From Candidatus Desulforudis audaxviator MP104C (lineage in GTDB: Bacteria; Bacillota; Desulfotomaculia; Desulfotomaculales; Desulforudaceae): 64,000 nt of DNA. Shown here piece by piece: positions 28,861-63,566 of the stretch. Where the stretch lies: assembly GCF_000018425.1 (NCBI RefSeq), contig NC_010424.1, positions 2,186,501-2,250,500 on the forward strand, written 5' to 3'. How positions within the stretch are numbered: the first letter of the stretch is position 1; each line of letters starts with the position of its first letter. The notes under the pieces were generated by a model. That model had not been told where the DNA came from and did not search any database. It saw only the letters and a program-made list of their open reading frames with translations. Made by a program: the position numbers and the translations under genes.

Positions 28861-31800
28861 CTAGATGCCCACTCCTGCGGTGGGAACGTCTTCGCCCCTT
28901 CTAAGCCGCCGCGTGACCATGCGGCCCCAGTCGTCGAAAATGCTGTAGACCACCGGCACCACCAGCAGACTGATCACGGTCGAGAAGACCAGCCCGCCGA
29001 TGATCACGGTCGCCAGCGGCGCCTGGAATTCGGCGCCCTCGCCGAGCCCCAGGGAGATCGGGAACATGGCGCCCACGGTCGTCAGCGTGGTCATCAGGAT
29101 CGGGCGCAGCCGTACCGGACCGGCCGTCCGGATGGCCTCGTCCCGCTCCATCCCCCGCCGGCGCAACTGGTTTACGTAGTCAATGAGCACGATGCCGTTC
29201 TTGCTCACGATGCCCACGGCCACGATCACCCCGATGAAGGCCGGCATGCTGAAGGTGCGGTCCGTCAGCAAAAGCCCCAGGATCATGCCGGTCAGGGACA
29301 GCGGCACGGCGAACATGATTACGAACGGGAAGAACAGGGACTCAAACAGCACGGCCAGCACGATGTAGATCAGGATGACCGCCAGCAGCAGCGCGAAAGC
29401 AAGTTCGGCGAAAGTCTCCGCCATCTCCTCGGCCTCGCCGCCGGTTTCAAAGTAGTACCCTGACGGCAGAGCCATACCTTTCAGTGCGGCCCGCGCGTCG
29501 CGGTCCACGCTCGCCAGGTCCCGGCCCTCGAGCTGCGCGCTGATGGTGACCGTGCGGGCCTGGTCGTCACGGTTGACGGCCACCGGGCTCTCCCCGAGCA
29601 CCACGTGGGCGACGTCCCGCAGCGGCACCTGTTGGCCGTTGGGCGCGGTCAACAACAGGTTATCCAGGTCGGCCAGGTGCCGGCGCGCTTCCTCGGTCAG
29701 CCGCACCCGCACATCGATCTCGTCCCCTCCGACGCGGTAGCGGGTGGCCACGTCCCCGTGCAGCGCCGACCGGACGGTGGACGCCACCTGGGCCACGCTC
29801 AGGCCGTATACGGCCGCCCGGTCCCGATCCACCAGCACCCGCGCCTCGGGCCGCCCTTCCTCCAGGCTGGACTTCACGTCCCGGGTGCCGGGCACGCCGG
29901 CGATCACGGCCGCCGCCTGTTGTCCCAGGCGGGCCAGGGTATCGAGGTCCTCACCCTTAAGCCTGATCTCCAGCGGGGCCCCACCCCTCATATGGAAGCC
30001 CGAGGACGTATTCACCCTGAAAACGGCGCCCGGAATGTGCCGCAGTTCTTTCCGGAGTGCTTCGGCCACTTCCTCGGAGCTACGGTCGCGCTCCCCGAGC
30101 GGCGCCAGGGTCAGGTCGATCCGGGCCCGGTCCGCGCTGCCGCCGCCCATCCCGAACATTGCTTCCTGGCCGCCCGACCCGACGCTCACAAACACCGTTT
30201 CCACCTCGGGGAACCCGGCCACTATCTCCTCCACCTGCGCCGCCACCCGGTCGGTGGCTTCGACGGCCGTGCCCCGAGGCATCTCGACTTCAACACTCAC
30301 CGTGCCTTCGTCCATCGCCGGGAAAAACTCGGCGCCCACCAGGGGGATCAGCGCCAGGCTGCCGATGAAAACCGCCGCCGCCAAGCCGACCACCTTGCGC
30401 CGGTTGTCCAGACTCCAGGCCAACAGACGCCCGTAGAAGACCTTCAGCCTCTCCAGCCCACTCCCGAACCGGTACAGCAGGCGTGAAAGCCGGGATCCGT
30501 CCGGCCTCGGCTCGTCCGGAAGGCGCACCAGCAGCCGCGACCCCAGCATCGGCACCACGGTCAGCGCCATGATCAGCGAGGAGAGCAGCGCGAAGACCAC
30601 GGTCAGGGAAAACGGTGTGAACAACACCGAAGCCATGCCGCCCACGAAGGCAATGGGCAGGAATACGGACATTGAAGTAAAAGAGGCGCCGAGGACCGCG
30701 CCGGTCACCTCCGCCGCCCCGGTCCGGGCGGCCGCCAGGGAATCCAACCCCTCCTGGCGGTGCCGGTAGATGTTTTCCAGGACGACGATGGCGTCGTCCA
30801 CGATCACCCCCACCCCCAGAGCCAGGGCGCCCAAGGTCAGCAGGTTCAGCGTCTCCCCGCTGAAGTAGATCATGTTGCAGGCACCGATGATCGCCAGCGG
30901 GATGGTGGCGCAGATGATCAGGGTGGTCCGGCTGTTCCGCAGGAAGATGAAGATCACCACAGCAGCCAGGAAAGATCCCACCAAAAGGTCGTTGCGCAGG
31001 TTGCCGATGGACATCTCGATGAACTCGGCCTGGTCGAAGGCCGGCTCAAAACTGATCGTGCCCGGGATTTCCTTCTCGATCCCGGCCAGGGTTTCCCGCG
31101 CCGCCTGCACCACCTGGACCGTGTTCGCCTGGGGCTGTTTCATCACCACTATCGCCAGGCTGGGCTGGCCGTTCAGGCGGCTGATGACGTCCGTTTCCCG
31201 GTACCCGTCCCGGAGATCGGCGATGTCGGCCAGCCGTACCGGCTCGCCGTCGGCGTTGGGCACCGTGACGCCCTCGATGTCCCGCAGGTCCGCGAATTCT
31301 CCGGGCACCCGCACCAGGTACTCGCGGGAGCCCTCCGGCACCGTTCCGCCGGGCATGTTCAGGTTGCCGGCCTGCAGGGACCGGGTCACATTCTCCAGAG
31401 AAACCCCGTAGCCCCGCATAGCCACCGGGTCCAGGTACACCTGGATCTCGCGCTCCCGTCCGCCCTGCACGGCGACCGAGGCCACGCCCGGCAGCCGTTC
31501 CAGGCGCGGTTTCACCGTGTTCTCGGCGATCCGGGTCAGGTCGGCCAGGCTTTGCTCGCCGGTGAAACCGACGATCAGCACCGGCAACGCTGCCGGGTCG
31601 AATTTCATAACCATGGACCGTTCGGCGTCCGCCGGCAGCACCCGCTGCACCCGGTCCACCTTTTCCCGGATGTCGTTGATTACGGCTTCCATGTCCGTGC
31701 CCCAGTCAAACTGGGCGATCACTACCGAGCTGCCGGATTGGGAAACCGAGGAGATGTTTTTCAGGTTCTCGACGGTGGCCACCGACTCCTCGATCGGCCG

Positions 31801-31992
31801 GGTGACCAACTGTTCGACCTCCTGCGGCCCGGCGCCCTGGTAGGTGGTGACAATGGAGACCACCGGAAACTCCCAGTTCGGGAGCAGGTCGATGGCCAGC
31901 CGGCTTAAGGACACCATTCCCAGCAGCAGCACCGCCAGGGCGAGCATGATCACCCCGACCGGACGGCGGACCGCGATATCGGCCAGTCTCAT
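28861..31992 (-). CDS. RND family efflux pump permease (AcrB/HAE1-like)
   Basis: 1043 residues, full length for the family. Two repeats of six membrane helices and two large extracytoplasmic loops. Visible: MRLADIAVRRPVGVIMLALA, NWEFPVVSIVTTYQGAGPQE, GVGVIVDDAIVVLENIYRHR (charged residues of the proton relay in helix 4), and GVIVAVGIVSKNGIVLIDYV in helix 10. It extrudes hydrophobic compounds using the proton gradient. The start overlaps the adaptor gene stop by four bases (ATGA), so they are coupled. The TolC-type channel these pumps need in diderms is not adjacent; a TolC-like gene lies 20 kb away. Confidence 0.95.
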   Translation of the reverse strand: MRLADIAVRRPVGVIMLALAVLLLGMVSLSRLAIDLLPNWEFPVVSIVTTYQGAGPQEVEQLVTRPIEESVATVENLKNISSVSQSGSSVVIAQFDWGTDMEAVINDIREKVDRVQRVLPADAERSMVMKFDPAALPVLIVGFTGEQSLADLTRIAENTVKPRLERLPGVASVAVQGGREREIQVYLDPVAMRGYGVSLENVTRSLQAGNLNMPGGTVPEGSREYLVRVPGEFADLRDIEGVTVPNADGEPVRLADIADLRDGYRETDVISRLNGQPSLAIVVMKQPQANTVQVVQAARETLAGIEKEIPGTISFEPAFDQAEFIEMSIGNLRNDLLVGSFLAAVVIFIFLRNSRTTLIICATIPLAIIGACNMIYFSGETLNLLTLGALALGVGVIVDDAIVVLENIYRHRQEGLDSLAAARTGAAEVTGAVLGASFTSMSVFLPIAFVGGMASVLFTPFSLTVVFALLSSLIMALTVVPMLGSRLLVRLPDEPRPDGSRLSRLLYRFGSGLERLKVFYGRLLAWSLDNRRKVVGLAAAVFIGSLALIPLVGAEFFPAMDEGTVSVEVEMPRGTAVEATDRVAAQVEEIVAGFPEVETVFVSVGSGGQEAMFGMGGGSADRARIDLTLAPLGERDRSSEEVAEALRKELRHIPGAVFRVNTSSGFHMRGGAPLEIRLKGEDLDTLARLGQQAAAVIAGVPGTRDVKSSLEEGRPEARVLVDRDRAAVYGLSVAQVASTVRSALHGDVATRYRVGGDEIDVRVRLTEEARRHLADLDNLLLTAPNGQQVPLRDVAHVVLGESPVAVNRDDQARTVTISAQLEGRDLASVDRDARAALKGMALPSGYYFETGGEAEEMAETFAELAFALLLAVILIYIVLAVLFESLFFPFVIMFAVPLSLTGMILGLLLTDRTFSMPAFIGVIVAVGIVSKNGIVLIDYVNQLRRRGMERDEAIRTAGPVRLRPILMTTLTTVGAMFPISLGLGEGAEFQAPLATVIIGGLVFSTVISLLVVPVVYSIFDDWGRMVTRRLRRGEDVPTAGVGI

Positions 31993-33131
31993 TGCTTAGC
32001 CTCCAGTCGCGATGCTTGCACTTTCATCCCGTCCTCCAGGGCTTCCTGCCCGGAAACCACCACGTCTTCCCCGGCCTCCAGCCCTTTGAGCACGGCCACC
32101 ATACGCCCGTCGGACGGGCCGGGCACAACCTCGCGCAGTTCGATCCGGCCCCCGGCGTGCACAAACACGAAGTGGGCGCCGGACCGCTGGAACACGGCGT
32201 CTCGGGGCACCAGCACGTTCTTGTCCGCCTCGGTCCCAAAGTCCACCTCGGCGAACATCCCCGCCTTCAACAGGTGGCCGGGATTGGGCAGCTCCACCTT
32301 CACCGGGTAGGTCCGGGCGCGCGCGTCGGCCGCCGGGGCGATGCTGACCACTTTACCGGTCAGCGGCTCGGCGGAAGCCGCCGCGACCCGCACCCGGACT
32401 TCTTGGCCGACCTTGATTTGGTTCACCAGTTTTTCGGAGGCGTTAACCTCCACCCGGACGAGGTCGATGTCGATCAGGGTGAGTACCGGCACGCCGGGCG
32501 AGGCCATCTCGCCGGGGTTCACGTTCCGGGCGGCCACGAGGCCGGATACGGGGGAGGTCAGGGTGGCATTGTTGTAGTTCGCCCGCACGAATTCCAGTTG
32601 GCCGCGGGCCTGCTGCAGTTGGGCGGGGGCCAGGTTTTCGGCCCGGTCCCGGGCCAGCTTGAAGTTCAGTTCCGCTTTCTCGAAGTCGGCATCCGGAATC
32701 GCGCCCTGGTCGTGGAGGAATTTCATTCGCTCATAGTCGGCTTGGGCCTGCTTAAAAGCCAGTTCAGCCTGAAAAAGCCCCGACTCGGCCGCCGCCACCC
32801 CGGCTTCGGCCTGGGTGAGCTGCGCCCTCAGTTCCACGGCGTCGAGCAGTACCACGGTTTGCCCGGCGCGGACCCGGTCGCCCACGTCCACGGTCACCGC
32901 CGCCACCTTGCCCGCCATCTTGGGCACAAGTTTGACCTCGGTCCGGGGAGCAACCTTCCCGGTCAAAACGTCACCGCGGCTCAAGCGCCCCATTTCGGCC
33001 TGAGCCACAAACACCGGGACCGCCGCAGCGCCTTCCTTCCCCTGCCCTTCGGTCCCGGCCCGTTCGCAACCGTTCAGCGTGAACAGCAAACCCAGAACCA
33101 CGACCAGTACCAACCACCTGCGCCCCAACAA
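31989..33131 (-). CDS. RND/ABC efflux periplasmic-adaptor-type subunit, lipoprotein
   Basis: About 380 residues from TTG 33131 with AAAGGGGA nine bases upstream; the frame open to 33200 would overlap the MarR gene. N-terminal lipoprotein signal LVLVVVLGLLFTLNGC, then the usual hairpin of membrane-fusion proteins: barrel-sandwich VPKMAGKVAAVTVDVGDRVR, a coiled coil (about 110-170), SPVSGLVAARNVNPGEM, and a beta-barrel domain. It links an RND pump to outer components. In a single-membrane cell it would be held on the outer face by its lipid. Operon order is marR-adaptor-pump. Confidence 0.92.
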   Translation of the reverse strand: MLGRRWLVLVVVLGLLFTLNGCERAGTEGQGKEGAAAVPVFVAQAEMGRLSRGDVLTGKVAPRTEVKLVPKMAGKVAAVTVDVGDRVRAGQTVVLLDAVELRAQLTQAEAGVAAAESGLFQAELAFKQAQADYERMKFLHDQGAIPDADFEKAELNFKLARDRAENLAPAQLQQARGQLEFVRANYNNATLTSPVSGLVAARNVNPGEMASPGVPVLTLIDIDLVRVEVNASEKLVNQIKVGQEVRVRVAAASAEPLTGKVVSIAPAADARARTYPVKVELPNPGHLLKAGMFAEVDFGTEADKNVLVPRDAVFQRSGAHFVFVHAGGRIELREVVPGPSDGRMVAVLKGLEAGEDVVVSGQEALEDGMKVQASRLEAKQ

Positions 33132-33133
33132 AA

Positions 33134-33646
33134 CTACCCATCCCCTTTCAATTCGGCTCTTCCCTCGTCCGCCCGCACAATCGCCAACAGCTTTTCGCAA
33201 ATGGACACGAGCTTTTCCAGATCCCCTTCGGGCAGGCGGGCGAAATATCCCTTCAGGACACGGTTCGAAATTTCCAATACACTAGACACCACCCGGTCCC
33301 CATCTTCCGTCAGCAACAACCGTACCACCCGGCGGTCCTGCTCGCTCCGCTGCCGCCGCATCAGGCCGGAGCGGCAAAGCCGGTCGGCCGTCACCGTGAT
33401 GGCGCTCAACGACACCCCCAAGCTTTCAGCGAGTTCGGACACGGTCATCCGCCCGTGTTTCTTCACCAGCTTGCACAGCGCAAACTGACCCGGGGTAAGC
33501 TCGTTGGGCACTTGCCGGGCAATCTGGACGTGCAGATGGCGTGCAAGCTGGATCATCAACTCGTCGATTCTATGAAGCGACTCCTCGAGCCTGTGCGAAT
33601 CCTCTTCTTCGGAAGGCGGCCCCAAGAGCTGTCCCTCCTCCCCCAT
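33134..33646 (-). CDS. MarR family transcriptional regulator
   Basis: 170 residues, winged-helix MarR fold: long N-terminal helix (EESLHRIDELMIQLARHLHV), LTPGQFALCKLVKKHGRMTV, the recognition helix region ESLGVSLSAITVTADRLCRS and the wing RRQRSEQDRRVVRLLLTEDG. MarR proteins repress multidrug efflux genes and release DNA on ligand binding. It is the first gene of the efflux operon and an imperfect 18-bp palindrome sits at its start codon, so autoregulation is likely. Confidence 0.93.
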   Translation of the reverse strand: MGEEGQLLGPPSEEEDSHRLEESLHRIDELMIQLARHLHVQIARQVPNELTPGQFALCKLVKKHGRMTVSELAESLGVSLSAITVTADRLCRSGLMRRQRSEQDRRVVRLLLTEDGDRVVSSVLEISNRVLKGYFARLPEGDLEKLVSICEKLLAIVRADEGRAELKGDG

Positions 33647-44787: not shown

Positions 44788-44821
44788 ATCAAGTAGGTTA
44801 GAAAGTAAGGGGTGCTTGAAA

Positions 44822-46098: not shown

Positions 46099-48345
46099 TT
46101 ACAACACGTCCAGGCGGCGGATCTCGCCGTTTCGCAACTCCAGGCGCACCTCCCAGCCCTCGCGCAGGTCGCGCAGCCGCAGGGCCGATCCGCCTCTGTC
46201 CCGCAGCACGGCGTTGCTTTCGAAGAAGAAGCGGAACACCCCGCCGCTGGCCTGCTCAATGGTCAGGCGCTCCCGGTCCAGGTCCACCCGGACGATCTCG
46301 CCTTCCACCCGGATGTTTTTGTCCTCGGTCACCTTGACGGTGGTCACCCGGCTCCCCGTCAGCACCAGTTCCACCTCGGCGCCGATCAGCACCTCGTCGA
46401 TGTACAGGCTGCGCCCGTCGCGCTCGGCTTTCACGTTGCGGTCCAGTTCGTATTTGGTGCTCCGGCCGTCCCGCTCGATGGTGATTTCATACCGCGACAG
46501 GTTCAGCGCCGTCACCTTGCCCCGGTACTGCCGGCCCACGTCCTTCTCCAGGATGACGATTTGGATGACCTCGTCGTGCCGGTTCAGCACCAGGCGCACC
46601 CGGTCGCCTTCGACCACGTCCCGCAGCTGCCGGGTGAGGCCGTCCCGGGTCACCTGCACGTCGTCGACCAGCATGTAGGTCTCGCTCCGCCCCCGGCTGT
46701 CCTCGATGGTGATCCGCGGTGCGGTGGCCGTCCGCAGGTAGGTGACGATACCTTCCTTCTCGCCCTGCCTGAGGTCCAGCGCCACCGCCGCCACCTTGCC
46801 GGCGGCGTCCAGCTGCAGTGCCACCCGGTCCCCCGCCTTGATGTCCTCCACCGCCATCCGGTTGCCGTCGGCGTCCCGCACAGTTACGCCGGCCGCGAAG
46901 CTAAGGCTCACCTGGTGCTTGTCCCCGTCCTCCACCGTGATGTCCGCGGCCCGGACGGTGACCACTTCTCCGAAGATCTTCCTGTCCTCATCCAGCACCC
47001 GCACACCCACAACGTTGCCGCCGGAGCGGATCAGCTCCACCCGCGCCCCGCGGCTGATCACGCTGTAATCGGCCGACCGGGTCCCCCGGTAAAACCGGGT
47101 GGCGGCGGAAACGTTCACCTCGCCCCGGGTGCCGTTGTCGTAGCGGACGCTGAAGTAGCTCAGCCCGGGGTAGTTGTTGATCACGTAAGCTTTCACGTCC
47201 CCGGTGGACGGCGCCGACGCGGTCTCCCCAATGATGATCTCGGTCACCTGCCCGGCCGTCACCCGGACTTCGACCGCCGCCCCCCGGTAGAGCGCCGTGA
47301 GGTCCTGCGCCGTCCCCTGCCTGGTGATGCGCACGTCGGAGCGCAGCGGCAGGGAAACGGTCCCCCCGGTATCCCGCCGCAGATCCAGGGTCGGGGGCGT
47401 GCCGAGCCGTACCGCATCCACCGTACCCCGGTACGTGGTCGTCGTCTCGGAAGGCGTGCCCGAAGGAGTCCCGGCAACGCCGCTTTCGGTGTAGGCCAGG
47501 AACCGGCAGCGGTTGTCGGCGTCCAACACCACGCGCACATTGTCCCCGGCCCGCAAGGTGCTGACCGCTACCTTGTCGGCCCCCTTGTAAACCAGGTTGA
47601 AAGCGGCCAGGTCATAGGTCCGGCTGCCCGCGGCCGTGCGCAGCACCACCCGCCGGCTGTCCGCCGTGACCAGCTCGGCCGTGAAATACCGCCCCGGAAC
47701 GGGATTCACCAGGCCGGCATCCAGCATCTTAGCCATCAGCGCGGTCATCTCGGCCCGGGTCACGCCCCGCCACGGCTCGAACCGGTTACCCGGCACCCCG
47801 GTCATGATTCCCGCCCGCACCACGGCGGCCACGTAGGGCCGGTAGTTCGCAGGAATGGACTGCAGGTCGGCGAAGGTGAGCAGCGCGTTCTCCGGCGAGA
47901 GTTTCAGGGCCGAGGCCACCAGGACGGCCACGTCCAAACGCGTGGCCGCGGCACGAAACGGCACGTCCGCCAGGCCGGTCTGGCTGATCCAGCCCTTCTG
48001 CACCGCCAAAGCCACCGGCCCCTTGGCCCAGGAACTGACGTCCGCCGGCAGGGTCAGCCGGAGGGCGTTCACGTCCAGCCGTTGCGCTTCGTCCTCCAGC
48101 CCCAGGGTGCGCACCACCATCACTACCAGCTCCTGCCGGCTCACCTCGTTCCGCGGCAGAAACGTTCCGTCGGGATAGCCGCGCACCAGTCCCAGCGCGT
48201 TGACCCGGGCAATTGCCTCGGCCGCCCAGTACCCCTGCGTATCCTTGAATTCGGTGAAGCCTTCGTCCGCCTGCGCCGCGACCGTCCCGCACGCCAACAA
48301 GAACACCGCCGCCGCCATCAGACAGAATAACCCCTTGCTCTTCAA
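46099..48345 (-). CDS. Secreted SLH-domain protein with seven tandem beta repeats
   Basis: About 748 residues from TTG 48345 with GGGGAGGGG five bases upstream. Signal peptide LKSKGLFCLMAAAVFLLACG. Three SLH repeats follow (FKDTQGYWAAEAIARVNALG; SSWAKGPVALAVQKGWISQT; NYRPYVAAVVRAGIMTGVPG with VTRAEMTALMAKML). The remaining 530 residues are about seven repeats of 65-75 residues with the pattern G-x-V-x-x-V-(strand)-V-x-R-D-G-x3-L-x-D-(L/V)-x2-G-D-x-V-x-L-x-L, e.g. GKVTALNLSRYEITIERDGR. No catalytic motif. Likely a structural wall protein held by the pyruvylated polymer. The same repeat type occurs in the protease at 59580. Confidence 0.9.
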   Translation of the reverse strand: MKSKGLFCLMAAAVFLLACGTVAAQADEGFTEFKDTQGYWAAEAIARVNALGLVRGYPDGTFLPRNEVSRQELVVMVVRTLGLEDEAQRLDVNALRLTLPADVSSWAKGPVALAVQKGWISQTGLADVPFRAAATRLDVAVLVASALKLSPENALLTFADLQSIPANYRPYVAAVVRAGIMTGVPGNRFEPWRGVTRAEMTALMAKMLDAGLVNPVPGRYFTAELVTADSRRVVLRTAAGSRTYDLAAFNLVYKGADKVAVSTLRAGDNVRVVLDADNRCRFLAYTESGVAGTPSGTPSETTTTYRGTVDAVRLGTPPTLDLRRDTGGTVSLPLRSDVRITRQGTAQDLTALYRGAAVEVRVTAGQVTEIIIGETASAPSTGDVKAYVINNYPGLSYFSVRYDNGTRGEVNVSAATRFYRGTRSADYSVISRGARVELIRSGGNVVGVRVLDEDRKIFGEVVTVRAADITVEDGDKHQVSLSFAAGVTVRDADGNRMAVEDIKAGDRVALQLDAAGKVAAVALDLRQGEKEGIVTYLRTATAPRITIEDSRGRSETYMLVDDVQVTRDGLTRQLRDVVEGDRVRLVLNRHDEVIQIVILEKDVGRQYRGKVTALNLSRYEITIERDGRSTKYELDRNVKAERDGRSLYIDEVLIGAEVELVLTGSRVTTVKVTEDKNIRVEGEIVRVDLDRERLTIEQASGGVFRFFFESNAVLRDRGGSALRLRDLREGWEVRLELRNGEIRRLDVL

Positions 48346-48550
48346 GTTTTCCCCTCCCCGTAAGATCAGCAATCAGGCACCCGGTCGTTTTGGGCCCAAA
48401 ATTCCTTTTGAACTTTCCGCCTTTGCCAGGGTAAATTAGCCATGAACACCGCCAATCCCTCCCCGTTAGACAAGAATTTGCCAAGAAAAGTCGGCGCGAG
48501 AAAACCAAGCCCCCTCTTAAAAGGGGGCCCGGCTCTTTGCATCGGACGAA

Positions 48551-49587: not shown

Positions 49588-50877
49588 TTAGCGCGTCATC
49601 GTCACGGTCCGGGTGGCGCCGTCCCAGTCCACCCGGGCGCCAAAGGCTTCCGCGATAGAGCGGTACGGCAGCATGATCCGCCCCGGCGGGACCAGTTCGG
49701 GAGCCGCGTCGATTTCCACCTTCATCCCGTCCACCAGCAAAAGCCTGCTCCCCACGGTCACCTGCACCGTGACCCCGTGCCCGGTCAACACGGCACGACG
49801 GGCCGCGCCGTCCCACTTGATATCTCCGGGACCGAGCCCCAAGCTCAGGGCGACATAGCGCAGCGGCAGGTAGGTACGCCCGTCCTTCAGGTAGGGGACG
49901 ACGTCCATCCGGGCCGTCACCCCGTTACTGGTGTAGCGGTCATTGCCGATGGTGAACACCACTGTCCGCGACACAACCGGCTCCGGTTTCGGTTCCGGCT
50001 TGGGCAGGGGCTTCGGTTCCGGCTCCGGCGCCCGGTAGTGGGCCACCAGGATGGTGCCGGCCGAAAGGTCCCTCAGTCCCTCGACTTTGGCCCTCACTTC
50101 TCCCGCGCCGGCCTTGGCGGCGTCGGTCACCCGCACCTCGGCCTCCACCCGAAAAGCGGTCCGCCGCGTGCTCTCCCGCTCGGTGCGCAGTTCCAGCACC
50201 CGGCCGTCGACCAGCGGCCTGACCTCCAGCCCCTCCCCGCTCACCAACGTGCCCTTCGCATTCGCCCAGCCGAAGCCTTCGGGCAAGGTCAGCTTGATCG
50301 GGCTGCCCTTGCGCAAAAGCCCGGCCATGTTCTCGCGGAAGGTGATCTCCACCGCACTTTTCCCGTCCGCGATGCTTTCCACCCGGCCGCTCTGAATAGT
50401 CACCTCGCCGGGGAGCACCTGCCCGGCCACCACGACACCGCTTGGGAGCTGGCCGTCCAAATGGGTAATGGTAATCTCTATGTCGCCGCTCCTCGCGGAG
50501 AGAATGGCGGACTGTATCGGAATCAAAAAGGTGGCTTTAGGGATGATGCCAGGCACCCTAATTTCACCAAGAAACTCATTCGCGGCTGTGGGTCTGATCG
50601 TCATGGTCACGGATGGATCTTCAATTGACGGGGTGTTATTCGGCAGCACCAGACTGAAATCTTTCGGCAACGCAAAGAGGGCTGCGTGCCCGCCGTCCAG
50701 CAGCGGCTCGATGCGGACTAAGAGCAGGCCAAGTTCCACCGGGTTATCCTGGGGTGCACGCCACATCTGCTCTCTGAGGAACTGGTAGGTGGTGGCCCCG
50801 CCGGCCGCCCCCGCAAACACCGACCACGCTAGGGCCGCCATCACGATGACGACAGTAACCCTTCTAAACCTTCTCAT
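49588..50877 (-). CDS. Secreted copper-amine-oxidase stalk-domain protein (shorter paralogue)
   Basis: 429 residues. Signal peptide RRVTVVIVMAALAWSVFAGA. Residues about 30-290 form a surface domain shared with the protein at 52304 (SGDIEITITHLDGQLPSGVV; ITFRENMAGLLRKGSPIKL). A Pro/Glu/Lys linker follows. The last about 120 residues are the copper amine oxidase N-terminal-like domain: DVVPYLKDGRTYLPLRYVAL and MLPYRSIAEAFGARVDWDGA. The domain name is historical; no oxidase catalytic domain is present and these proteins are common on the surface of Clostridia and Peptococcaceae. Terminator at 49525-49563. Confidence 0.88.
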   Translation of the reverse strand: MRRFRRVTVVIVMAALAWSVFAGAAGGATTYQFLREQMWRAPQDNPVELGLLLVRIEPLLDGGHAALFALPKDFSLVLPNNTPSIEDPSVTMTIRPTAANEFLGEIRVPGIIPKATFLIPIQSAILSARSGDIEITITHLDGQLPSGVVVAGQVLPGEVTIQSGRVESIADGKSAVEITFRENMAGLLRKGSPIKLTLPEGFGWANAKGTLVSGEGLEVRPLVDGRVLELRTERESTRRTAFRVEAEVRVTDAAKAGAGEVRAKVEGLRDLSAGTILVAHYRAPEPEPKPLPKPEPKPEPVVSRTVVFTIGNDRYTSNGVTARMDVVPYLKDGRTYLPLRYVALSLGLGPGDIKWDGAARRAVLTGHGVTVQVTVGSRLLLVDGMKVEIDAAPELVPPGRIMLPYRSIAEAFGARVDWDGATRTVTMTR

Positions 50878-51002
50878 CTATTTCTTCCCCCTCCTTGTGG
50901 TCAACATAGCACACCAAGCAGGGAAACCGCAAAACACCTGAGGACAAAACAGCCAGCCGCAGGACCACCCTGCGGCCGTTTGCTGAACAAATCGCCTTAC
51001 CG

Positions 51003-52127
51003 CTACCTGCTCCCCGTCCCGCCTGCACTCACGGCCCACGGTTTCTGGAAGGCCAGTTTCAGGTAGGCGTGCTGGCAGGCGAGATCGAACAACTCCTGCT
51101 CTGCCTCGGCCAAAGCCGCCTCGCGCTCGGCAACGTCGGCCGCCGTCGCCATCCCCACCTCGCGGGCCAGCAGAGTCACCCGAAGCGCCTCCTGCGCGGC
51201 CTTCACCTGTTCCAAGGCGGCGGCATGGGCCGCTTCCAGACTCCGCAACGAGTAGTAAAGCTCCCTGGTCGCAAGCCGCACGGCGTCGCGGGCCGAGACG
51301 GCGTCGAGTTCCGCCTGTTCGACTTCAATCTGGCGCACCTTATACGGAGTGTACTGGCCCCTGGCCCACATCAGTTCCTGGGCGTACTTGGCCAGGGTCA
51401 CGCCCTCGTTCGCGAGCCAGACGGCGGGGCTCGACTCCAGCACCCGCTGGACGTGGACGTCGAGGTTATCCACCTCAACCGGCCTAAACTCCACGCTATC
51501 CACCAGCACCGGGCGGTACTGCGGCCAAAAACCGGTAAGCTGGTTCAACCCCTCGTAGGCGGCGTCGAGTTCGTTCCGGGCCGCCGCCAGCCCGGTGCGC
51601 GCCCCTGCCAGCGCCGCCTCCGCGCCGGCCAACGCCACTTGCGGCGACATTCCCGGGGCCGACATTCCCACCCGCGCCAGCGCCCTGGTCTTGCGCAGGG
51701 CCAATTCCGCCTTGCGGACGCCCGCTTCGGCCGCCCGCACCTTCTCCTTGGCTTTAAGCACGTCCCAGTACTTCCGGCAGGTGCTCAGGACCAGGCGGTC
51801 TTCTTCCACGTTCTGGGTGCGCTTGCTCATCTGCCAGTTAAGGTCGGCGGAAAGGAGCGAGTACCAGGCTATTTCCACCCGGGGGTCATAGCTTCCGCCG
51901 CGCACCGGGGTGAAAGTCAGTTGGTCAGCAGCCTGCCGGCGCAGCTCTTCCGCCTTGTCCACGTCCAGACCGGCCTTCTTTAGCGCCGCGCTCTGCCTGA
52001 TGGCCAGCGTGACGGCCTCGTTCAGGGTCAGTTCCGGGGTGGCCGGCTCCTTGGCCCATCCGGCGGGGACTAGAAACATCCAGGTGGCAGCGATGACGGT
52101 AAAAAGCAGCACTAGGACGCGGCGCAT
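51003..52127 (-). CDS. TolC-like (outer membrane efflux protein family) protein
   Basis: 374 residues. Signal peptide VLVLLFTVIAATWMFLVPAG. The rest is nearly all alpha-helical and Ala/Glu/Arg-rich with the TolC pattern: LTLNEAVTLAIRQSAALKKA, then KYWDVLKAKEKVRAAEAGVR, and the second half-repeat VTLAKYAQELMWARGQYTPY ... LAREVGMATAADVAEREAAL. It is shorter than typical TolC proteins (about 430-490). Sits between two paralogous copper-amine-oxidase-domain proteins and has its own promoter (52180-52208). In a single-membrane cell its role is unclear; it may be a surface coiled-coil protein or a channel. Confidence 0.85.
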   Translation of the reverse strand: MRRVLVLLFTVIAATWMFLVPAGWAKEPATPELTLNEAVTLAIRQSAALKKAGLDVDKAEELRRQAADQLTFTPVRGGSYDPRVEIAWYSLLSADLNWQMSKRTQNVEEDRLVLSTCRKYWDVLKAKEKVRAAEAGVRKAELALRKTRALARVGMSAPGMSPQVALAGAEAALAGARTGLAAARNELDAAYEGLNQLTGFWPQYRPVLVDSVEFRPVEVDNLDVHVQRVLESSPAVWLANEGVTLAKYAQELMWARGQYTPYKVRQIEVEQAELDAVSARDAVRLATRELYYSLRSLEAAHAAALEQVKAAQEALRVTLLAREVGMATAADVAEREAALAEAEQELFDLACQHAYLKLAFQKPWAVSAGGTGSR

Positions 52128-52179: not shown

Positions 52180-52208
52180 AGCATATCCCGGCCACACGGC
52201 CACGTCAA
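52180..52208 (-). promoter_or_regulatory. Sigma-A promoter of the tolC-like gene
   Basis: TTGACG, 17 bases, TATGCT on the minus strand, 53-81 bases before the start. Confidence 0.65.
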
Positions 52209-52303: not shown

Positions 52304-54418
52304 TTACAGCTCCATCGTCACGGTCTGGGTGGTGGCGTCCCACAGGACGCTCGCCCCGAAGGCGGTGGCGATATGGCGGAAGGGAAGCATGGTCCGCTTG
52401 TTGGTGATCTCCGGAGCCACGTCGATGGCGACGCGGGCGCCGTTGATGACCACGGCCTTCTGACCGACGGTGAACTGCACGACCCGGTCACCCTTGATCA
52501 GGGTGGCGGTGCGGGTGGCGTTGTCCCAGAAGATGTTCTCCTCCGCGACGCCCAGCGCCTGACCCGCGAAGCGGATCGGCAGGTAGGTGCGGCCGTCCTT
52601 GACGTACGGCGCGACATCCATCGTGGCCTCCACACCGCCTACCGTGTAGGTGGTGGAACCGATCACGAAGGCGGCGGTCCGCTTGGTCTCAGCCGGAGCC
52701 GGGGTGACCACGTTGGCCAGTGCCACCTTGGCTACGCAACCGGCAGCCGGGAAGGTAGTAGCGGTTTGGTTGATGGCGTCACCATTCACGTCAAAGACAA
52801 TCGGTCCAACGGGGACAGTGCGGTCGACAGTAATTGCCACGTCGGAAACGGCGATGGTGCTGGCGACTGTGCTGTCGCTCCTGATCACAATTCTCAGTTC
52901 ACCGCCTGTGACAGTGACACTGTCAATCCTCAGGTCGCCAGAAGTAACCTCAACCTTAGGAACCTTCGCAAAGCTGACGCCGTTCGGCCCGGCAACGGTA
53001 AGCATGCGAGGAGTTCTGTCAATGGCTCCCTTTCTGCTTTCAACGATGGTGAAGTTACCGGCAGCCTGGTTCTTCTGCCCGATAATCACATCAGGCGTAG
53101 CCGCACTGACAGTGACCGGGGCCAGAACGTTGGCCACCTTGAGCGTGCCGGTAGCGCCGGACTGGCCGGAGAACTCAAGGTTCAAGTCACCAACTGTATC
53201 GGCAGCCAAAGTGACTCTCCCATCCCTCAACAGGATTTCGGCCGCTGTTGCCGAACTTCCAGCGGTGATCGGCACTCTGAGCGTCCGGGTATCCACCGCT
53301 ACGAGAGCACCAAGCGTAATGTCGCCTTTTTCAACCACGACCGTCGGGTTGGTGTTCCACACAGCGTTGTCAGGCAACTTGAAGGTGATGCTACGTCCCG
53401 CAATCAGGCTTCCGGGTACGGCTTCTTTCACGTAGAAGTCGCCGATCTTCTGAGCGGCACGCCCAGCCAGAGCATCCTCAACGGTCTTCGCTGAAACCGA
53501 AACGCCGAATTCGGCATACTTGGCAACCAACAGAGAATTAACATTCGTGCTGCTGGCACCGCCAATGGTTGCCGTCACATCGCCAAACTTGGCCAATGTT
53601 TCCGAAGGCGTGATGGTCGCCGTAACCCTTAGGAACATCCTCGGAGCTGTAACGCCGGTACGGACTACCCGCAGCTTGCGGGTATCACCAGGGACGACGG
53701 AAACGCCAATACCGTCAACACCAGGCGGCAGGCCGGTAGCAACGTTGATAATACTGGCTCCTGACCAGTCGAAACCGGTGGGAAGAGCAAACTCTAAGGA
53801 GTTGACGGCATCGACAGCAAGGCCACCCGCGATGTTCTCCTGTATATTGATTGAAACGGCTCTGCCGGCCAGACCCATCGTCGGGGTGCTGACCATCGAA
53901 ACGCTTACTTGGCCGCTCGGGGCCTTACCGACTACCACACTGCCGTCGGGCAACTGGCCGGACAGGCTGGTGATGGTGCACGTAATGTCCCCACTCGCCG
54001 CTGCGGTGGTGACACCCGTAATGGGAACCGTGATCTTAACGTCGGTCAACAAACCACTGGCGGCCGAAGTGGTCAAGTCAAGGCGAAACTCCTGATTACC
54101 CAAACGCGCTACAGTAATGGTATCAGGCGGGGCTAAGGCCGGGGAGATGCTTGGAGTCGCCAGGACGGCCGGTAAGGTAACGCTCGAGGGTAGCCGGAAC
54201 ACGGCGGAATGCGTTCCAACTCCAAGCGCATCAATAGCGATAAAGATGGTGCCCAGATCGACGGTTGTTCCCGGCGCTGTGGTCTGAGGCACTGAAGGCG
54301 CCGTCAGCGCACTGTACGTTGTCGCCGCACCGGCCGGCACAGCCAGCGGGAGCATGATACTTAGTACGAAGATTAGGGTGAGCAGGATGGTGAGTTTCTT
54401 GCTCCTGATTTTGTACAC
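52304..54418 (-). CDS. Large secreted copper-amine-oxidase stalk-domain protein, possible S-layer-type protein
   Basis: 704 residues from GTG 54418 with AAGGAGGG eight bases upstream. Signal peptide KLTILLTLIFVLSIMLPLAV. About 550 residues of Thr/Val/Ala-rich beta-sandwich sequence follow, with an N-terminal part paralogous to 49588 (SGDITCTITSLSGQLPDGSV; INIQENIAGGLAVD). C-terminal copper amine oxidase-like domain: DVAPYVKDGRTYLPIRFAGQ and MLPFRHIATAFGASVLWDAT. Composition, length and strong translation signal suit an abundant surface protein; that is inference. Codon use is less GC-biased than the surrounding genes. Confidence 0.86.
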   Translation of the reverse strand: MYKIRSKKLTILLTLIFVLSIMLPLAVPAGAATTYSALTAPSVPQTTAPGTTVDLGTIFIAIDALGVGTHSAVFRLPSSVTLPAVLATPSISPALAPPDTITVARLGNQEFRLDLTTSAASGLLTDVKITVPITGVTTAAASGDITCTITSLSGQLPDGSVVVGKAPSGQVSVSMVSTPTMGLAGRAVSINIQENIAGGLAVDAVNSLEFALPTGFDWSGASIINVATGLPPGVDGIGVSVVPGDTRKLRVVRTGVTAPRMFLRVTATITPSETLAKFGDVTATIGGASSTNVNSLLVAKYAEFGVSVSAKTVEDALAGRAAQKIGDFYVKEAVPGSLIAGRSITFKLPDNAVWNTNPTVVVEKGDITLGALVAVDTRTLRVPITAGSSATAAEILLRDGRVTLAADTVGDLNLEFSGQSGATGTLKVANVLAPVTVSAATPDVIIGQKNQAAGNFTIVESRKGAIDRTPRMLTVAGPNGVSFAKVPKVEVTSGDLRIDSVTVTGGELRIVIRSDSTVASTIAVSDVAITVDRTVPVGPIVFDVNGDAINQTATTFPAAGCVAKVALANVVTPAPAETKRTAAFVIGSTTYTVGGVEATMDVAPYVKDGRTYLPIRFAGQALGVAEENIFWDNATRTATLIKGDRVVQFTVGQKAVVINGARVAIDVAPEITNKRTMLPFRHIATAFGASVLWDATTQTVTMEL

Positions 54419-55142: not shown

Positions 55143-55370
55143 ATGCGTAGAATGCAGGTCGTAGTTGAAGAATGGCAGTACGAGGTTTTGCGGGCAATCG
55201 CCGCGCGGCAGGGGAAATCGGTATCGGCTGTCTTGAGGCAAATTATCGCCAGCCAGGTAAGCAAAACCTCTGGCAAAGACCCCCTGCTGGAAGTTGCCGG
55301 GTTAGCCCAGGCGCCACCGGAAAAAGACCTGGGTAGTGAAACAATTGACGAACGCCTCTATAAGGCGTGA
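55143..55370 (+). CDS. Ribbon-helix-helix antitoxin
   Basis: 75 residues. N-terminal MRRMQVVVEEWQYEVLRAIA and RQGKSVSAVLRQIIASQVS form a ribbon-helix-helix fold (beta strand and two helices), with a C-terminal tail that should bind the PIN toxin. AAGGAG before the start. Overlaps the toxin gene by four bases. Tandem 13-bp repeats over its promoter are probable binding sites. Confidence 0.83.
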   Translation: MRRMQVVVEEWQYEVLRAIAARQGKSVSAVLRQIIASQVSKTSGKDPLLEVAGLAQAPPEKDLGSETIDERLYKA

Positions 55371-55804
55371 GTAAAATGCGCCAGATATTCGTAGACACCA
55401 GCTTTTGGTACGCTCACGCCTTTGCCGGTGACGCCCATCACCGGGAGGCGGCAGCTTTTCTCAGCCACGTGCCTGCTCCCCTTGTAACTTCTAACTTCGT
55501 TTTCGACGAATTAATGACTATCCTGCGGTATGATTTCGGCCACCATGTAGCCGTGAAATACGGGAAACACCTGCGGGAGAGCAAGATTTGCACTCTGGTA
55601 CGCCTGAACGCCGAGGATGAAGAAACAGCCTGGGCGCTTTTCCTCAAGTACAGCGATCAGAATTTCCGTTTTACCGACTGCACCAGCTTTGCTCTCATGC
55701 GCCGCCTGGGGATTAACGAGGCAGCCGCTTTTGACGGTCATTTTGATGCTGCCGGTTTCACCCGCTTACCCGCGGTACCGCTAAGAAAAAAGCCGCCGAA
55801 GTAA
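55367..55804 (+). CDS. PIN-domain toxin (VapC-like)
   Basis: 145 residues from GTG 55367. PIN motifs: MRQIFVDTSFWYAHAFAGDA, TSNFVFDELMTILRYDFG, RFTDCTSFALMRRLGINEAA and FDGHFDAAGFTRL. Coupled to the RHH antitoxin (GTGA overlap). Probably a sequence-specific ribonuclease, as for the family. Confidence 0.88.
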   Translation: MSKMRQIFVDTSFWYAHAFAGDAHHREAAAFLSHVPAPLVTSNFVFDELMTILRYDFGHHVAVKYGKHLRESKICTLVRLNAEDEETAWALFLKYSDQNFRFTDCTSFALMRRLGINEAAAFDGHFDAAGFTRLPAVPLRKKPPK

Positions 55805-55882: not shown

Positions 55883-56149
55883 ATGAAATCCATAACCGTA
55901 AAATTGGATGAAGCCACTTTCCGGCAGTTGCAAGAAGCGGCGGAAGCCGGGGGGATCAAAAACCAGAGTGAACTGGTGCGTCGCGCCTTAAAGACCTATC
56001 TGGCAAGAGAATCGCTGGCGGCCAGGAAACAGGCGGTCGCCGATTATGCGGCCGATGCCGGCGCTCAGCAGGAAGCGGTCGGTCTGGCGGAAACCGGCCT
56101 CGATGATCTGAAGGACTACCTTGAACAGATTGAGGAAGGGGATGCATAG
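55883..56149 (+). CDS. Ribbon-helix-helix antitoxin of a MazF-type pair
   Basis: 88 residues from ATG 55883 (MKSITVKLDEATFRQLQEAA), a typical RHH start; GTG 55874 in the same frame is possible. EAGGIKNQSELVRRALKTYL completes the RHH fold, and the acidic C-terminus (LDDLKDYLEQIEEGDA) should block the toxin. The stop overlaps the MazF start. Confidence 0.83.
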   Translation: MKSITVKLDEATFRQLQEAAEAGGIKNQSELVRRALKTYLARESLAARKQAVADYAADAGAQQEAVGLAETGLDDLKDYLEQIEEGDA

Positions 56150-59579: not shown

Positions 59580-62500
59580 TTACCGGCCGGCGGCGAGGAA
59601 GCGGTTTAGGGCCGCGGCCAGCTCGGCGCGGGTAACGGGGGCGGCGGGGGCGAAGCGCCCGTCCGGGCGGCCGCGGAAGATCCCGGCCTCGTAGGCGCGC
59701 GACACGGGGGCTTGCGCCCAGTCGGGCACCAGGGCCCAGTCGGCGTAGGGCGGCGGGGAATCCGGCGGCGGGTCCCGGAACTGCTCAAGCGCGCGCACGA
59801 GGACGGCGGCGGCCTCGGCCCGGGTGACGGGAGCCGCAGGGCGGAAGGTGCCGTCCGGGTAGCCGCTGACCAGACCGCGGTCGCGGGCGGCGGCGACCGA
59901 GGGCCGGGCCCAGTCCGGGACGGCGGCATCGTCGGCAAAGCCGGGGGCGGCGCCCGGTCTGGTGGGCCAGCCCAGGAGGCGCACCAGCACGGCGCTGAAC
60001 TCGGCGCGGTTCACGGGGCGGTCCGGCCGGAAGGTGCCGTCCGGATAGCCGACCATCAGGTTCCGGGCGCTCAGGGCCTGGATGTCCCGCTCGGCCCAGG
60101 AGCCCCGGATGTCCGTCAGGACGCGCGCTTCCCGGAGCGGCGGGAAGGACACCGTCTGCCCGGTGACGGCGCCGCTCTGGCTGTCCACCGCCACCACCCG
60201 CAGGCTGGTTTCACCGGGCTGCCTCTGGACCGGGTAGGCGAAGCTCCTCTCCCGCAGGGGCACTTCCAAGCGGCTGCCGTCGGCGTGCACGAAATGCACC
60301 CGGTCGGCGCTGGTGCGCCCGCTCACCAGCAGGTAGCCGTTAAACGGCAGTCCGGAAGCGCTCAGCTCCGGAGCGGGTACGCCGGGAACCGACCGCGCCG
60401 CCACCTCGATCAGCACCTGCTCCGCCCCGGCCGGCAGGGCGGTGAACTCCACCCGTTCGCCGGGGCGCAGGCTCTCGGCGGTGACCGGGTAGCCGTTTTT
60501 GAGCACCGCGGTGCGCGGGTCCAGCCGGTACTCCTGTCCGTCGATGCGGACCAGCCGGCGGCCGGGGTCATACATTTCCAGGGTGCCCGCCCCTCGGACC
60601 GCCCGTTCGGCAACGTCGAAGCGCAGCGCCCGGCCGACCCGCCCCGGCTGGTGCGGGTGCCCCGCCGGGTCCAGGAGCACCCGCACCCAGAGACCGGGGG
60701 ACAGCGCGGCGGCGTCCACCCGCAGGCCCCAGCGGAAGAACTGGGTGCCGGGCGTAAAGGTGATACTTCGAAACACGTCGTACTCGTCCATCAGGTAAGC
60801 CACGGTTTCGCCGGTGTACAGCACCTGGCCGTACAGCACCCGCGAGAACGCCTCCACCCCCAGCACTTCCCGCGAACCCGGCAGGAGCACCGCCAGGAGG
60901 CGGTCGCCCGGCCGCAAGGCTTCAAGAGGCACGGTCTCCCGGTCCCGGCGGATGGCGGCGCCGGGAAAGACTTTGAACTCGGTGCCGGTTTCCAGAGTCA
61001 GGCGCCGGCTTTCGGGGTCGACCGCGTGCAGCCCGCCAAAGGCGATCGGCCGGCGGGCGCTGATATACTGCACTTCCCCGGTGGTTGGCGACAGGACCAG
61101 GCGGACCGCCATGCCGGCCCGCAGTTCTCCCACCACAGCCGCGCCAGCCGCGCCGAAGGGCCGGTCGATCCAACAGCCGTCCACCACGACGTCGTCGATG
61201 GAAACGGCGGCCGCGGGGGAAATCCGCAGGGGCTCCTCGTCCCCGACCAGCCGGATCTTCCCGGCGGCGGCGTCAATCGCGGCCAGGAGTCCGTCCCGCT
61301 CCCGGTAGAAGGCCTCCACCCGCCACAGGGTCTGGGTGGACGGGTTGACGGCACCCGTGATTTCCACCCCCGGAGGCAGCGCTTCCGGGGTCCCCGGGGC
61401 GCCGTTGATCCAGACGGCGTTCCGGCCCTGCGGGGCCAGGAAGTAGCCGCCCTCCCGCTCCAGCGGATTGATGGCCGCGAACACGGTCTCCCCCTCGAAG
61501 TCCAGGGTTTTCACCGCCCCGGCGCGCCAGGTTGCGGACACGGCGTACGCAGCCCGGGGCGCCTCAGCGGAAGGTCCGAACAGATAGAGGTCGGCGCCGG
61601 GCAGAATGTCCTTTGCGGTGCCGCCGGCGCGCACCCCGTTCACCAGGTTTTTCGCCCCGGCGCGCGGGAGTTCGACCCGGCCGCCGCCGGCGGTCTCCAG
61701 CGCGTTTCCGTTCGCGCCAAGGGCCGTCTCCCGCACCGGAAGGCAGCCGAACACCAGGGCGAAGTCCTGGGCGGGCGCCGCCGTCCCGCGGCTCCAGGCA
61801 GCGTTTTCGGCGACGCGCGCCGCCCGGACGGTCACGGTGTAGGTCCCGGGCTGCGGCCGCGCGATGACCACCCGCTCGATGTTGTTCACGTCGTCGGACC
61901 GGCCGATGCCCGCGAAGTCGTTGCCGTGGAAAACCGTGCCGTCCGGCGAGGTGACCGTCAGGTCCAGGTTGTTCACCAGGGTGCGGGCCGCCCCCGGGGC
62001 GGCGGGCGGGTCGGTCCAGGCCAGGGTGGCCGAAAAGGGCGCGTCGGGGTGTTCGACCGCGAAGGTGCGGGAGACGGCCTCGCCCTCCGCCAGGCCGTTG
62101 TGGGCGTCGATGTGGTGGAAGGTTTTCTCGCGCAGGGCGAGGACGGTGGCGCCGAGGTCCAGGATGCCGAAGGTCTGCCTTGGCTCCGCCCCTTTTACGG
62201 GTCGGGCGCCGTTCACCAGGGCGGCGCGCAGGAGGGCCGCCGAGGGGCGGGCCAGGCGTTCCTCGACCCTGAAGTACTCGCGGAGCAGGACGGCGGACCC
62301 GCCGGCCGCGGCCGCGGCCATGCTGGTCCCCTCCATCCGCTGGTAGGCCGGGTGGGCCGGGTAGTTGTCGGCCACGAGCGCCGAGCGGGCCGAGATGACG
62401 GCGGTGCCGGGCGCGAGGAGGTCCGGCTTAATGCGCCCGTCGGCCGCCGGGCCGCGGCTGGAGAAGGCGGCCGCTTTATCGGCGGCCAGGCTGTCCGGGC

Positions 62501-63566
62501 CGTAGGCCGGGCGGGGGTTCTGAGACGCCCCGACCACCAGGGCGTTCTTGCTGTTTGCTTCCGGGGTGAGGGTGCCATGATGCGGGCCGGCGTTCCCGGC
62601 GCCGAACACGGGTAAAAAGTCGCGGTAGTAGTGCACGAAGCGGTCCACCTGGGCGCTGACACTCCGATAGGCGTTGGTCCGGCCGCCCCAGCCGTTCACG
62701 TGCACGCGGGCGCCGGCCTCGTAGGCCGGGCGGAAGAGCGACACCAGGTCGGCGGGCGGTTCGAGTTCGCCGGCCGGGTTTAGAAGGGCCTGGAAGTAGA
62801 TGCTCGCTCCCGGGGCCACGCCGCGGTGTTTCCCGCCGGAGGCGGTGCCGGTCCCGGCCACCGTGGCCGCGACGTGGGTGCCGTGCCCGACCGGGTCGGC
62901 CGTGCCGCCGCCGGACCAGGAACGCAGGAGGACGACCTTGGGCATGCGGCCCGGGACGCTGGCGAGGTCGGGGTGGATCTCGTCGGTGCGGCCCCGGTCC
63001 AAGCCGCTGTCGGCCACGGCCACGATCTGGCCGGCCCCGGTTAGGCCAGACGGCGTGGCGAAGCCCGGCACGGTGAGAAAATCAGCCCCGATGACCGCGC
63101 GTACCCGGTCGTTCAGAAGGACAGGGGCTTCGTAAGGTTCAAGGGAAAAGACGTCCGGGCTGCCGGCGAGCGCCTCGGGCAGCGGGGTGGACAGGCTCAC
63201 CCGCAGGACCCGGCCGTCCTCCTCGTCCAGGCCGCGCAGGACAGTGCCGCCGTGCGCGTGCACCAGGGCCGCCACCCGGTCCTTGGCGTCCGCCCGGAAC
63301 AGGGTGACGTTGAGCACCAGGGGATCGCCACCGGACCCGTCTGCGGGCCGGCCCGCGTCCGCGGCCGCGGCGGCGGAGGCCGGCGGTGGGACCGTTTCAA
63401 GGACGGTGAGAGGGCCGGTGCGGCCGGTTTTGCCGGGTCTGGTCTCCGGGCCGGCCGCCGGGCCGAAGAGCCCGCCGCCCCCCGGCGCGAGCAGAAAAAC
63501 CGTAATCAGCAACGCACTGAGCACGACAAGCGCGCCGAGCACGAACAGTTGCCTTTGCTTTTGCAT
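59580..63566 (-). CDS. Large SLH-domain subtilisin-like surface protease
   Basis: 1328 residues from ATG 63566 (GGAGG four bases upstream). Signal-anchor VLGALVVLSALLITVFLLAP, Pro/Ala-rich stretch, propeptide-like region, then an S8 domain with Asp in IVAVADSGLDRG, His in GHGTHVAATVAG, Asn in PVFGAGNAGPHHG and Ser in MEGTSMAAAAAGGSAVL, followed by a P/homoB-like domain (NNLDLTVTSPDGTVFHGNDF). About residues 760-1080 carry beta repeats of the same kind as in the SLH protein at 46099 (LGGLH-type: ESRRLTLETGTEFKVFPGAA). The last about 190 residues are three SLH repeats (VGYPDGTFRPDRPVNRAEFS; VSGYPDGTFRPAAPVTRAEA). An active wall-bound protease is expected. Confidence 0.92.
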   Translation of the reverse strand: MQKQRQLFVLGALVVLSALLITVFLLAPGGGGLFGPAAGPETRPGKTGRTGPLTVLETVPPPASAAAAADAGRPADGSGGDPLVLNVTLFRADAKDRVAALVHAHGGTVLRGLDEEDGRVLRVSLSTPLPEALAGSPDVFSLEPYEAPVLLNDRVRAVIGADFLTVPGFATPSGLTGAGQIVAVADSGLDRGRTDEIHPDLASVPGRMPKVVLLRSWSGGGTADPVGHGTHVAATVAGTGTASGGKHRGVAPGASIYFQALLNPAGELEPPADLVSLFRPAYEAGARVHVNGWGGRTNAYRSVSAQVDRFVHYYRDFLPVFGAGNAGPHHGTLTPEANSKNALVVGASQNPRPAYGPDSLAADKAAAFSSRGPAADGRIKPDLLAPGTAVISARSALVADNYPAHPAYQRMEGTSMAAAAAGGSAVLLREYFRVEERLARPSAALLRAALVNGARPVKGAEPRQTFGILDLGATVLALREKTFHHIDAHNGLAEGEAVSRTFAVEHPDAPFSATLAWTDPPAAPGAARTLVNNLDLTVTSPDGTVFHGNDFAGIGRSDDVNNIERVVIARPQPGTYTVTVRAARVAENAAWSRGTAAPAQDFALVFGCLPVRETALGANGNALETAGGGRVELPRAGAKNLVNGVRAGGTAKDILPGADLYLFGPSAEAPRAAYAVSATWRAGAVKTLDFEGETVFAAINPLEREGGYFLAPQGRNAVWINGAPGTPEALPPGVEITGAVNPSTQTLWRVEAFYRERDGLLAAIDAAAGKIRLVGDEEPLRISPAAAVSIDDVVVDGCWIDRPFGAAGAAVVGELRAGMAVRLVLSPTTGEVQYISARRPIAFGGLHAVDPESRRLTLETGTEFKVFPGAAIRRDRETVPLEALRPGDRLLAVLLPGSREVLGVEAFSRVLYGQVLYTGETVAYLMDEYDVFRSITFTPGTQFFRWGLRVDAAALSPGLWVRVLLDPAGHPHQPGRVGRALRFDVAERAVRGAGTLEMYDPGRRLVRIDGQEYRLDPRTAVLKNGYPVTAESLRPGERVEFTALPAGAEQVLIEVAARSVPGVPAPELSASGLPFNGYLLVSGRTSADRVHFVHADGSRLEVPLRERSFAYPVQRQPGETSLRVVAVDSQSGAVTGQTVSFPPLREARVLTDIRGSWAERDIQALSARNLMVGYPDGTFRPDRPVNRAEFSAVLVRLLGWPTRPGAAPGFADDAAVPDWARPSVAAARDRGLVSGYPDGTFRPAAPVTRAEAAAVLVRALEQFRDPPPDSPPPYADWALVPDWAQAPVSRAYEAGIFRGRPDGRFAPAAPVTRAELAAALNRFLAAGR

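Follow-up and report, generated by a model that had tools for sequence, protein, structure and literature searches.

Candidatus Desulforudis audaxviator encodes a TolC-like protein of 374 residues that keeps the helical part of the TolC fold and carries short loops where canonical TolC has its membrane strands. The gene occupies positions 51003..52127 on the minus strand of the window, by which we mean the whole 64,000-nucleotide stretch of DNA that was analysed. Our preferred reading, which we consider probable, is that the protein is the exit duct of an RND system, embedded in the wall or S-layer and derived from the TolC of a diderm ancestor. The trimerisation, docking, anchoring, location and transport role of such a duct are what we infer from the sequence comparisons, the predicted structure and the gene neighbourhoods described below.

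The gene and its product

The reading frame, with bounds at exactly 51003 and 52127, starts with ATG, and the N-terminus of its product, MRRVLVLLFTVIAATWMFLVPAGWA-KEP, has on inspection by eye the pattern of a signal peptide, without a lipobox cysteine; we place this peptide at about residues 1-25 (52053..52127, minus strand), ending at AWA/KEP. The protein matches the Pfam family PF02321 (OEP) in two stretches, at 69.5 bits and E 4.2e-19 with a cut-off of 22 bits, and the best stretch aligns with positions 80-168 of the 187-position profile, which is the helical part past the strands. In the search of the whole genome the two stretches fell at profile positions 80-168 and 89-187, and the protein is the only PF02321 member that this genome encodes. 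Tandem OEP repeats in a putatively secreted protein assign it to the TolC/PF02321 family, and a preliminary description of this DNA, which had recognised a signal peptide and TolC-type repeats, was right in both. Sequence matches in the PDB are E. coli TolC and its homologues, and the closest named relative is Desulforudis sp. SURF_60, at 67% identity. The SURF_60 genome also holds a second, shortened TolC-like reading frame (L042:4806-5126, plus strand; 106 residues with a single OEP stretch), which probably represents a paralogue in decay.

Directly past the stop codon lies a terminator-like hairpin of 11 pairs, 8 of them G-C (50954..50978, minus strand); the count of terminator-like sites in the region was not above that in shuffled sequences. 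The promoter-like site 5' of the gene (52180..52208, minus strand) is a consensus match only and not above chance.

A TolC fold without barrel strands

In an AlphaFold2 model computed with eight homologues (mean pLDDT 83, pTM 0.76), the protein is all helix except for short bridges, with helices at residues 82-152, 162-198, 260-323 and 329-361. A Foldseek comparison of the model with the PDB gave 44 matches at E<0.001, every one of them of the TolC/OMF class, the best being TolC itself at E 4.8e-11. TolC and other outer membrane factors are homotrimers with a continuous lumen, and in TolC each protomer contributes four transmembrane strands to the 12-strand barrel of the trimer. At the corresponding places in the Desulforudis model there are short loops, formed by residues 72-81 at the strand site of repeat 1 (51885..51914, minus strand) and by residues 256-259 at that of repeat 2 (51351..51362, minus strand); judged by the model and by insert lengths, there are no barrel strands at either site. 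The earlier suspicion that so short a protein might lack membrane strands is therefore upheld by the structure prediction, which was run on the monomer.

We measured the inserts and the helical spans between them by aligning the sequences jointly, with E. coli TolC as the anchor. At the two strand sites the Desulforudis protein has inserts of 30 and 10 residues, where E. coli TolC has 55 and 63, and the same shortening separates the TolCs of BamA-bearing relatives (medians of 59 and 50 residues) from the proteins of BamA-less ones (32 and 12). The helices, on the other hand, have kept their lengths: 63 residues separate the strand end from the first tip glycine, whether in E. coli, in diderm Firmicutes or in the barrel-less proteins, the distance from the tip to the equatorial region is 40 in all three, and the second long helix spans 67, 67 and 66 (66-67) residues, respectively. 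Among 89 barrel-less proteins of an enlarged set, the first span is exactly 63 in 93% and the second exactly 40 in 92%. For the Desulforudis protein itself the three spans are 63, 45 and 67 residues, as against 63, 40 and 67 in E. coli TolC, the longer second span being due to a 5-residue insertion at the first hairpin tip that is found in this protein and its Desulforudis relative. The tip glycines, Gly154 in the VGM motif of hairpin 1 (51666..51668, minus strand) and Gly325 in the VGMAT motif of hairpin 2 (51153..51155, minus strand), are invariant in 59 of 59 barrel-less rows. The model, the Foldseek matches, the spans and the glycines together identify a TolC helical fold with conserved hairpin tips. 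Since the helix spans stayed unchanged while the inserts shrank, selection has kept the geometry of the TolC tube as the barrel went, and we take this as the chief argument against a role as a simple spacer.

Outer-membrane markers and the cell envelope

The Ca. Desulforudis audaxviator genome consists of one contig of 2,349,476 bp and is 99.98% complete; BamA (PF01103), LpxC (PF03331) and LptD (PF04453) have no match anywhere in it. The preliminary description had seen no outer-membrane genes in the DNA before it, and the search of the genome for BamA and LPS genes extends that statement to the whole chromosome; a full barrel and outer-membrane assembly genes, which together would indicate an ordinary diderm TolC, were both looked for and neither was found. 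A study of diderm Firmicutes describes the Peptococcaceae as monoderm, without homologues of outer-membrane markers (eLife 2016; PMC5007114). Within the class Desulfotomaculia, BamA was detected in 1 of 113 genomes, on a contig of 3.3 kb (G091, contig C2, L033), and a BamA-less assembly has a full-length TolC beside a foreign-looking reading frame (G189, contig C160, L118); contamination is the likely source of both. The window does hold genes of S-layer type, namely those for SLH proteins and a polysaccharide pyruvyl transferase, and the S-layer itself is a candidate structure.

Distribution and origin of the barrel-less forms

PF02321 proteins occur in 102 of the 113 genomes of the class. 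In a sample of 398 genomes from the phylum, PF02321 was found in 286 and BamA in 100; with both lists combined, 98 genomes have the two together and 188 have PF02321 without BamA. Among the phylum matches listed, the best-scoring ones, which come nearly all from BamA-bearing genomes, start at profile position 1-9, whereas the PF02321 matches of 42 genomes that lack a BamA match, sampled at one per family where this could be done, start almost always beyond position 60. Barrel loss is thus a lineage-wide remodelling and not the property of one odd protein. A degenerate back-translation search with a narrower alignment (A2) yielded only nine loci.

In a quick tree of 91 sequences, restricted to the helical part, 57 of 59 barrel-less rows group together (SH-aLRT 92), and this group adjoins the TolCs of BamA-bearing, diderm Firmicutes. 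The two rows outside it, L124 and L146, are both long-branched, and the long second insert of L124 appears by eye to be a Pro/Glu-rich loop and not strands. A more careful tree, from which long-branched and near-duplicate rows were removed, L124 and L146 among them, has a branch, recovered in 96% of bootstrap trees (94/77 support), that sets all 50 barrel-less rows apart from the others; its rooting is limited because E. coli TolC is the sole outgroup. The sequences suggest that the barrel-less forms likely had a single origin by strand loss.

The RND pump and its adaptor

One AcrB-type pump, one strong adaptor and one duct gene are present in the genome, and all three lie inside the window. 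The pump (1043 residues; 28861..31992, minus strand) is the sole one of its type, and its adaptor (HlyD_D23; 31989..33200, minus strand), which has a lipobox LNGC recognised by eye and, by alignment with AcrA and MacA, a hairpin tip of the form R-x3-L-x6-P, is the only strong PF16576 match, a weaker HlyD-type match elsewhere in the genome reaching 45 bits. These are the RND pump and lipid-anchored adaptor that had been noticed some 20 kb from the TolC-like gene, and their identity holds. A MarR-family regulator (33134..33646, minus strand) completes the cluster. Pump and adaptor, encoded on the strand of the TolC-like gene, lie about 18-20 kb downstream of it and do not share an operon with it: the order on the minus strand is TolC-MarR-adaptor-pump, and about 17 kb, occupied by SLH and other genes, separate the duct from MarR. 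The same order, TolC-MarR-MFP-RND, is found in Desulfofundulus, where in Desulfofundulus australicus it forms a compact cluster.

Each genome contributed the neighbourhood of its best match, and neighbourhoods from related genomes do not count as independent. Among 47 of them from Desulfotomaculia, 20 include MarR genes, all downstream and on the strand of the TolC-like gene, 20 include RND adaptors and 15 RND pumps; genes of the EmrA/EmrB type occur in 11. Of 40 BamA-less genomes outside the class, 20 have a same-strand RND pump no more than 12 kb away, which in 16 of these is the immediate neighbour, and MFP-RND-TolC is a common order. Across the 113 genomes of the class, RND pumps are present in 107, and a search for co-absence of duct and pump found almost no absences in common; several near-complete genomes have an RND pump and no detectable duct. 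The pair is therefore not obligate.

The adaptor tip had seemed a possible source of docking evidence. The motif R-x3-L-x6-[SP], which matches MexA R119, L123 and S130 (PMC4446572), is found in 29 of the 34 adaptors encoded next to RND pumps, where shuffling predicts 1.7. It is also kept in 5 of 8 adaptors of genomes without a detected PF02321 protein and so proves no docking, and we dropped it as evidence.

Stalk-domain and surface-layer neighbours

As the preliminary description had it, the gene lies among SLH and stalk-domain genes. Upstream is a secreted protein of 704 residues (52304..54418, minus strand), by Pfam, model and Foldseek a chain of Ig-like domains that ends in a PF07833 stalk domain. 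Its model is a chain of beta-sandwich domains with the stalk domain last (pLDDT 82, pTM 0.51) and resembles in Foldseek the Ig-like stalks found in adhesins of the cell surface, PrgB being an example; whole-chain TM-scores are low, so that only the domain type is informative, and a sequence search of this protein against the PDB gave no match. Downstream is a PF07833 protein of 429 residues (49588..50877, minus strand), which has a counterpart in the same place in Desulforudis SURF_60 (L034). SLH domains are carried by a candidate surface-layer component (46099..48372, minus strand) and by a large subtilase (59580..63566, minus strand); with a second SLH-bearing subtilase at 39711-42803 on the plus strand, the region is flanked by surface proteases.

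The association with stalk genes recurs. PF07833 genes lie near the TolC-like gene in 36 of the 47 Desulfotomaculia neighbourhoods, and SLH genes, stalk genes or fusions are close to the duct in 21 of the 40 BamA-less genomes outside the class. In four proteins, L058 (G039), L163 (G454), L169 (G138) and L185 (G117), the TolC-like part and PF07833 are fused; three of them have the stalk domain at the C-terminal end, the fourth at the N-terminal end. There is also a second setting, in which stalk-TolC pairs lie downstream of spoIID-M23-spoIIID-mreB, most also with murA (L045, L049, L052, L057, L058, L071, L073, L078 and L082); most of these pairs are followed by polysaccharide genes and have no RND pump nearby.

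Two further features of the locus deserve mention. An ECF sigma factor (56696-57313) and an anti-sigma-like zinc-finger protein (57310-58380) are encoded on the plus strand, and homologues of such pairs lie upstream, on the opposite strand, of the TolC-like genes in 19-20 of the 47 Desulfotomaculia neighbourhoods; it is possible that the pair regulates the stalk-TolC locus. Toxin-antitoxin-type genes are scattered around it at 44816-45480 (MazE-like and PIN), 55367-55804 (PIN) and 56121-56534 (PemK/MazF-like).

Discussion

We propose that the protein would be exported by Sec and would then assemble, as TolC does, into a trimer whose long, paired helices form a tube with a collar at its equator. 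Because the membrane barrel has been deleted, this tube would end as short loops inside the wall or S-layer, where it would be held by surface proteins; the PF07833 stalk proteins of the neighbouring genes are the most plausible candidates. The inner tip, with its invariant TolC glycines, would be the docking site for an exporter's adaptor, in this genome most likely that of the sole AcrB-type RND pump, and substrates would be released beyond the wall and not into it. The preliminary description had offered a barrel-less conduit across the wall, for RND or other exporters, as one possibility, and this is the account that fits best. Counting against a conduit are the distance to the pump, the pair not being obligate, the stalk-TolC loci without a pump and the 5-residue insertion at the tip.

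Some of these same observations would suit a structural role, in which TolC helices act as a coiled-coil spacer or scaffold that sets the distance of stalk and SLH proteins in the surface layer and transports nothing. Stalk genes near the duct in 36 of 47 Desulfotomaculia, the four stalk fusions, the loci of that class that consist of a stalk-TolC pair with no pump nearby, and the genomes that have a pump without a detectable duct all favour it. A spacer, however, has no obvious need for helix spans equal to the residue to those of transport-active TolC, for invariant tip glycines, or for the membership of many relatives in adaptor-RND operons, and we now regard this second suggestion of the preliminary description as unlikely. 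Less likely still is that the duct serves mainly other exporters, of the ABC/type I secretion or MFS kind, for example for surface proteins, and that RND plays a secondary part or none. Several pumps share TolC in E. coli, EmrA/EmrB-type genes lie near the duct in 11 of 47 neighbourhoods, ABC genes flank some relatives, the genome has its second, weaker HlyD-type protein, and a type I-like role has been proposed in D. reducens (PMC4137172); yet RND is the commonest pump beside the barrel-less ducts of other families, and no ABC exporter was found beside the Desulforudis gene. A cryptic diderm with an ordinary TolC in its outer membrane, to which PF02321 membership and the proximity of diderm Firmicutes might point, is so improbable that we have ruled it out: BamA, LpxC and LptD are absent, the one BamA among 113 genomes of the class sits on a 3.3-kb contig, and the protein has no barrel strands.

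TolC-like proteins in monoderm Firmicutes have been reported before, 12 proteins in 5 families including one of C. difficile, often with adaptor and pump genes beside them and with housing in an S-layer proposed; omission of the barrel was noted for the C. difficile protein from one homology model (Stubenrauch et al., 2022, PLoS Biol; PMC8809574). The Desulforudis protein therefore belongs to a kind already described, sharing with those proteins the monoderm Firmicute host, the OEP repeats, the missing barrel, the absence of BamA and the S-layer genes. Many of them are encoded in adaptor-pump operons, whereas in Desulforudis the genes are about 18-20 kb apart on the same strand and become adjacent in relatives. 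That paper mentions no Desulf- genus in its main text, and our data go beyond it in measuring the deletion in both repeats across many families, in supporting a single origin, and in the stalk partner and fusions. The deletion in two repeats with intact helix lengths, the single clade, the comparison with BamA inside a single phylum, and the pairing and fusion with PF07833 appear to be additions to prior work, and we did not find them in the open-access literature.

Comparison with E. coli TolC (PDB 1EK9 etc.) shows the same two-repeat helical architecture, helix spans, tip glycines and equatorial region, whereas the Desulforudis precursor, at 374 residues against 493, has neither membrane strands nor an outer membrane to insert into. 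In a related genus, the surface proteome of Desulfotomaculum reducens included HlyD proteins and a protein of the same Pfam family, Dred_3141, whose locus tag is near that of the PF07833 protein Dred_3143; a modified type I system was put forward by its authors, and the surface extracts also held many cytoplasmic proteins (PMC4137172). We liken Dred_3141 to the duct by family and locus tag, and the passages of that paper that deal with it do not discuss a missing barrel. A helical tube that extends a pump of the RND superfamily outward, in a lineage without TolC, is also known from the coiled coil of mycobacterial MmpL5; unlike the duct proposed here, that tube is part of the pump itself, not a relative of TolC, and lies below the mycomembrane (PMC12501195).

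A wider scenario seems to us possible rather than probable. An ancestor that was losing its outer membrane may have kept TolC minus its barrel, by a deletion in both repeats, while Ig-like and stalk-domain (PF07833) surface proteins took over as the outer socket; the RND pumps of many single-membrane Firmicutes would then still be tripartite. On this view the duct without its barrel would be a molecular fossil from the passage of diderm to monoderm cells, anchored in a new way by stalk proteins. If this is true, tripartite efflux or secretion has outlived the outer membrane, of which single-membrane Firmicutes, thought to have lost it, still carry a remodelled relic. The loss of the outer membrane would then be readable from an exact sequence change, and the PF07833 stalk proteins would be named candidates for what forms the socket of a TolC tube where there is no outer membrane.
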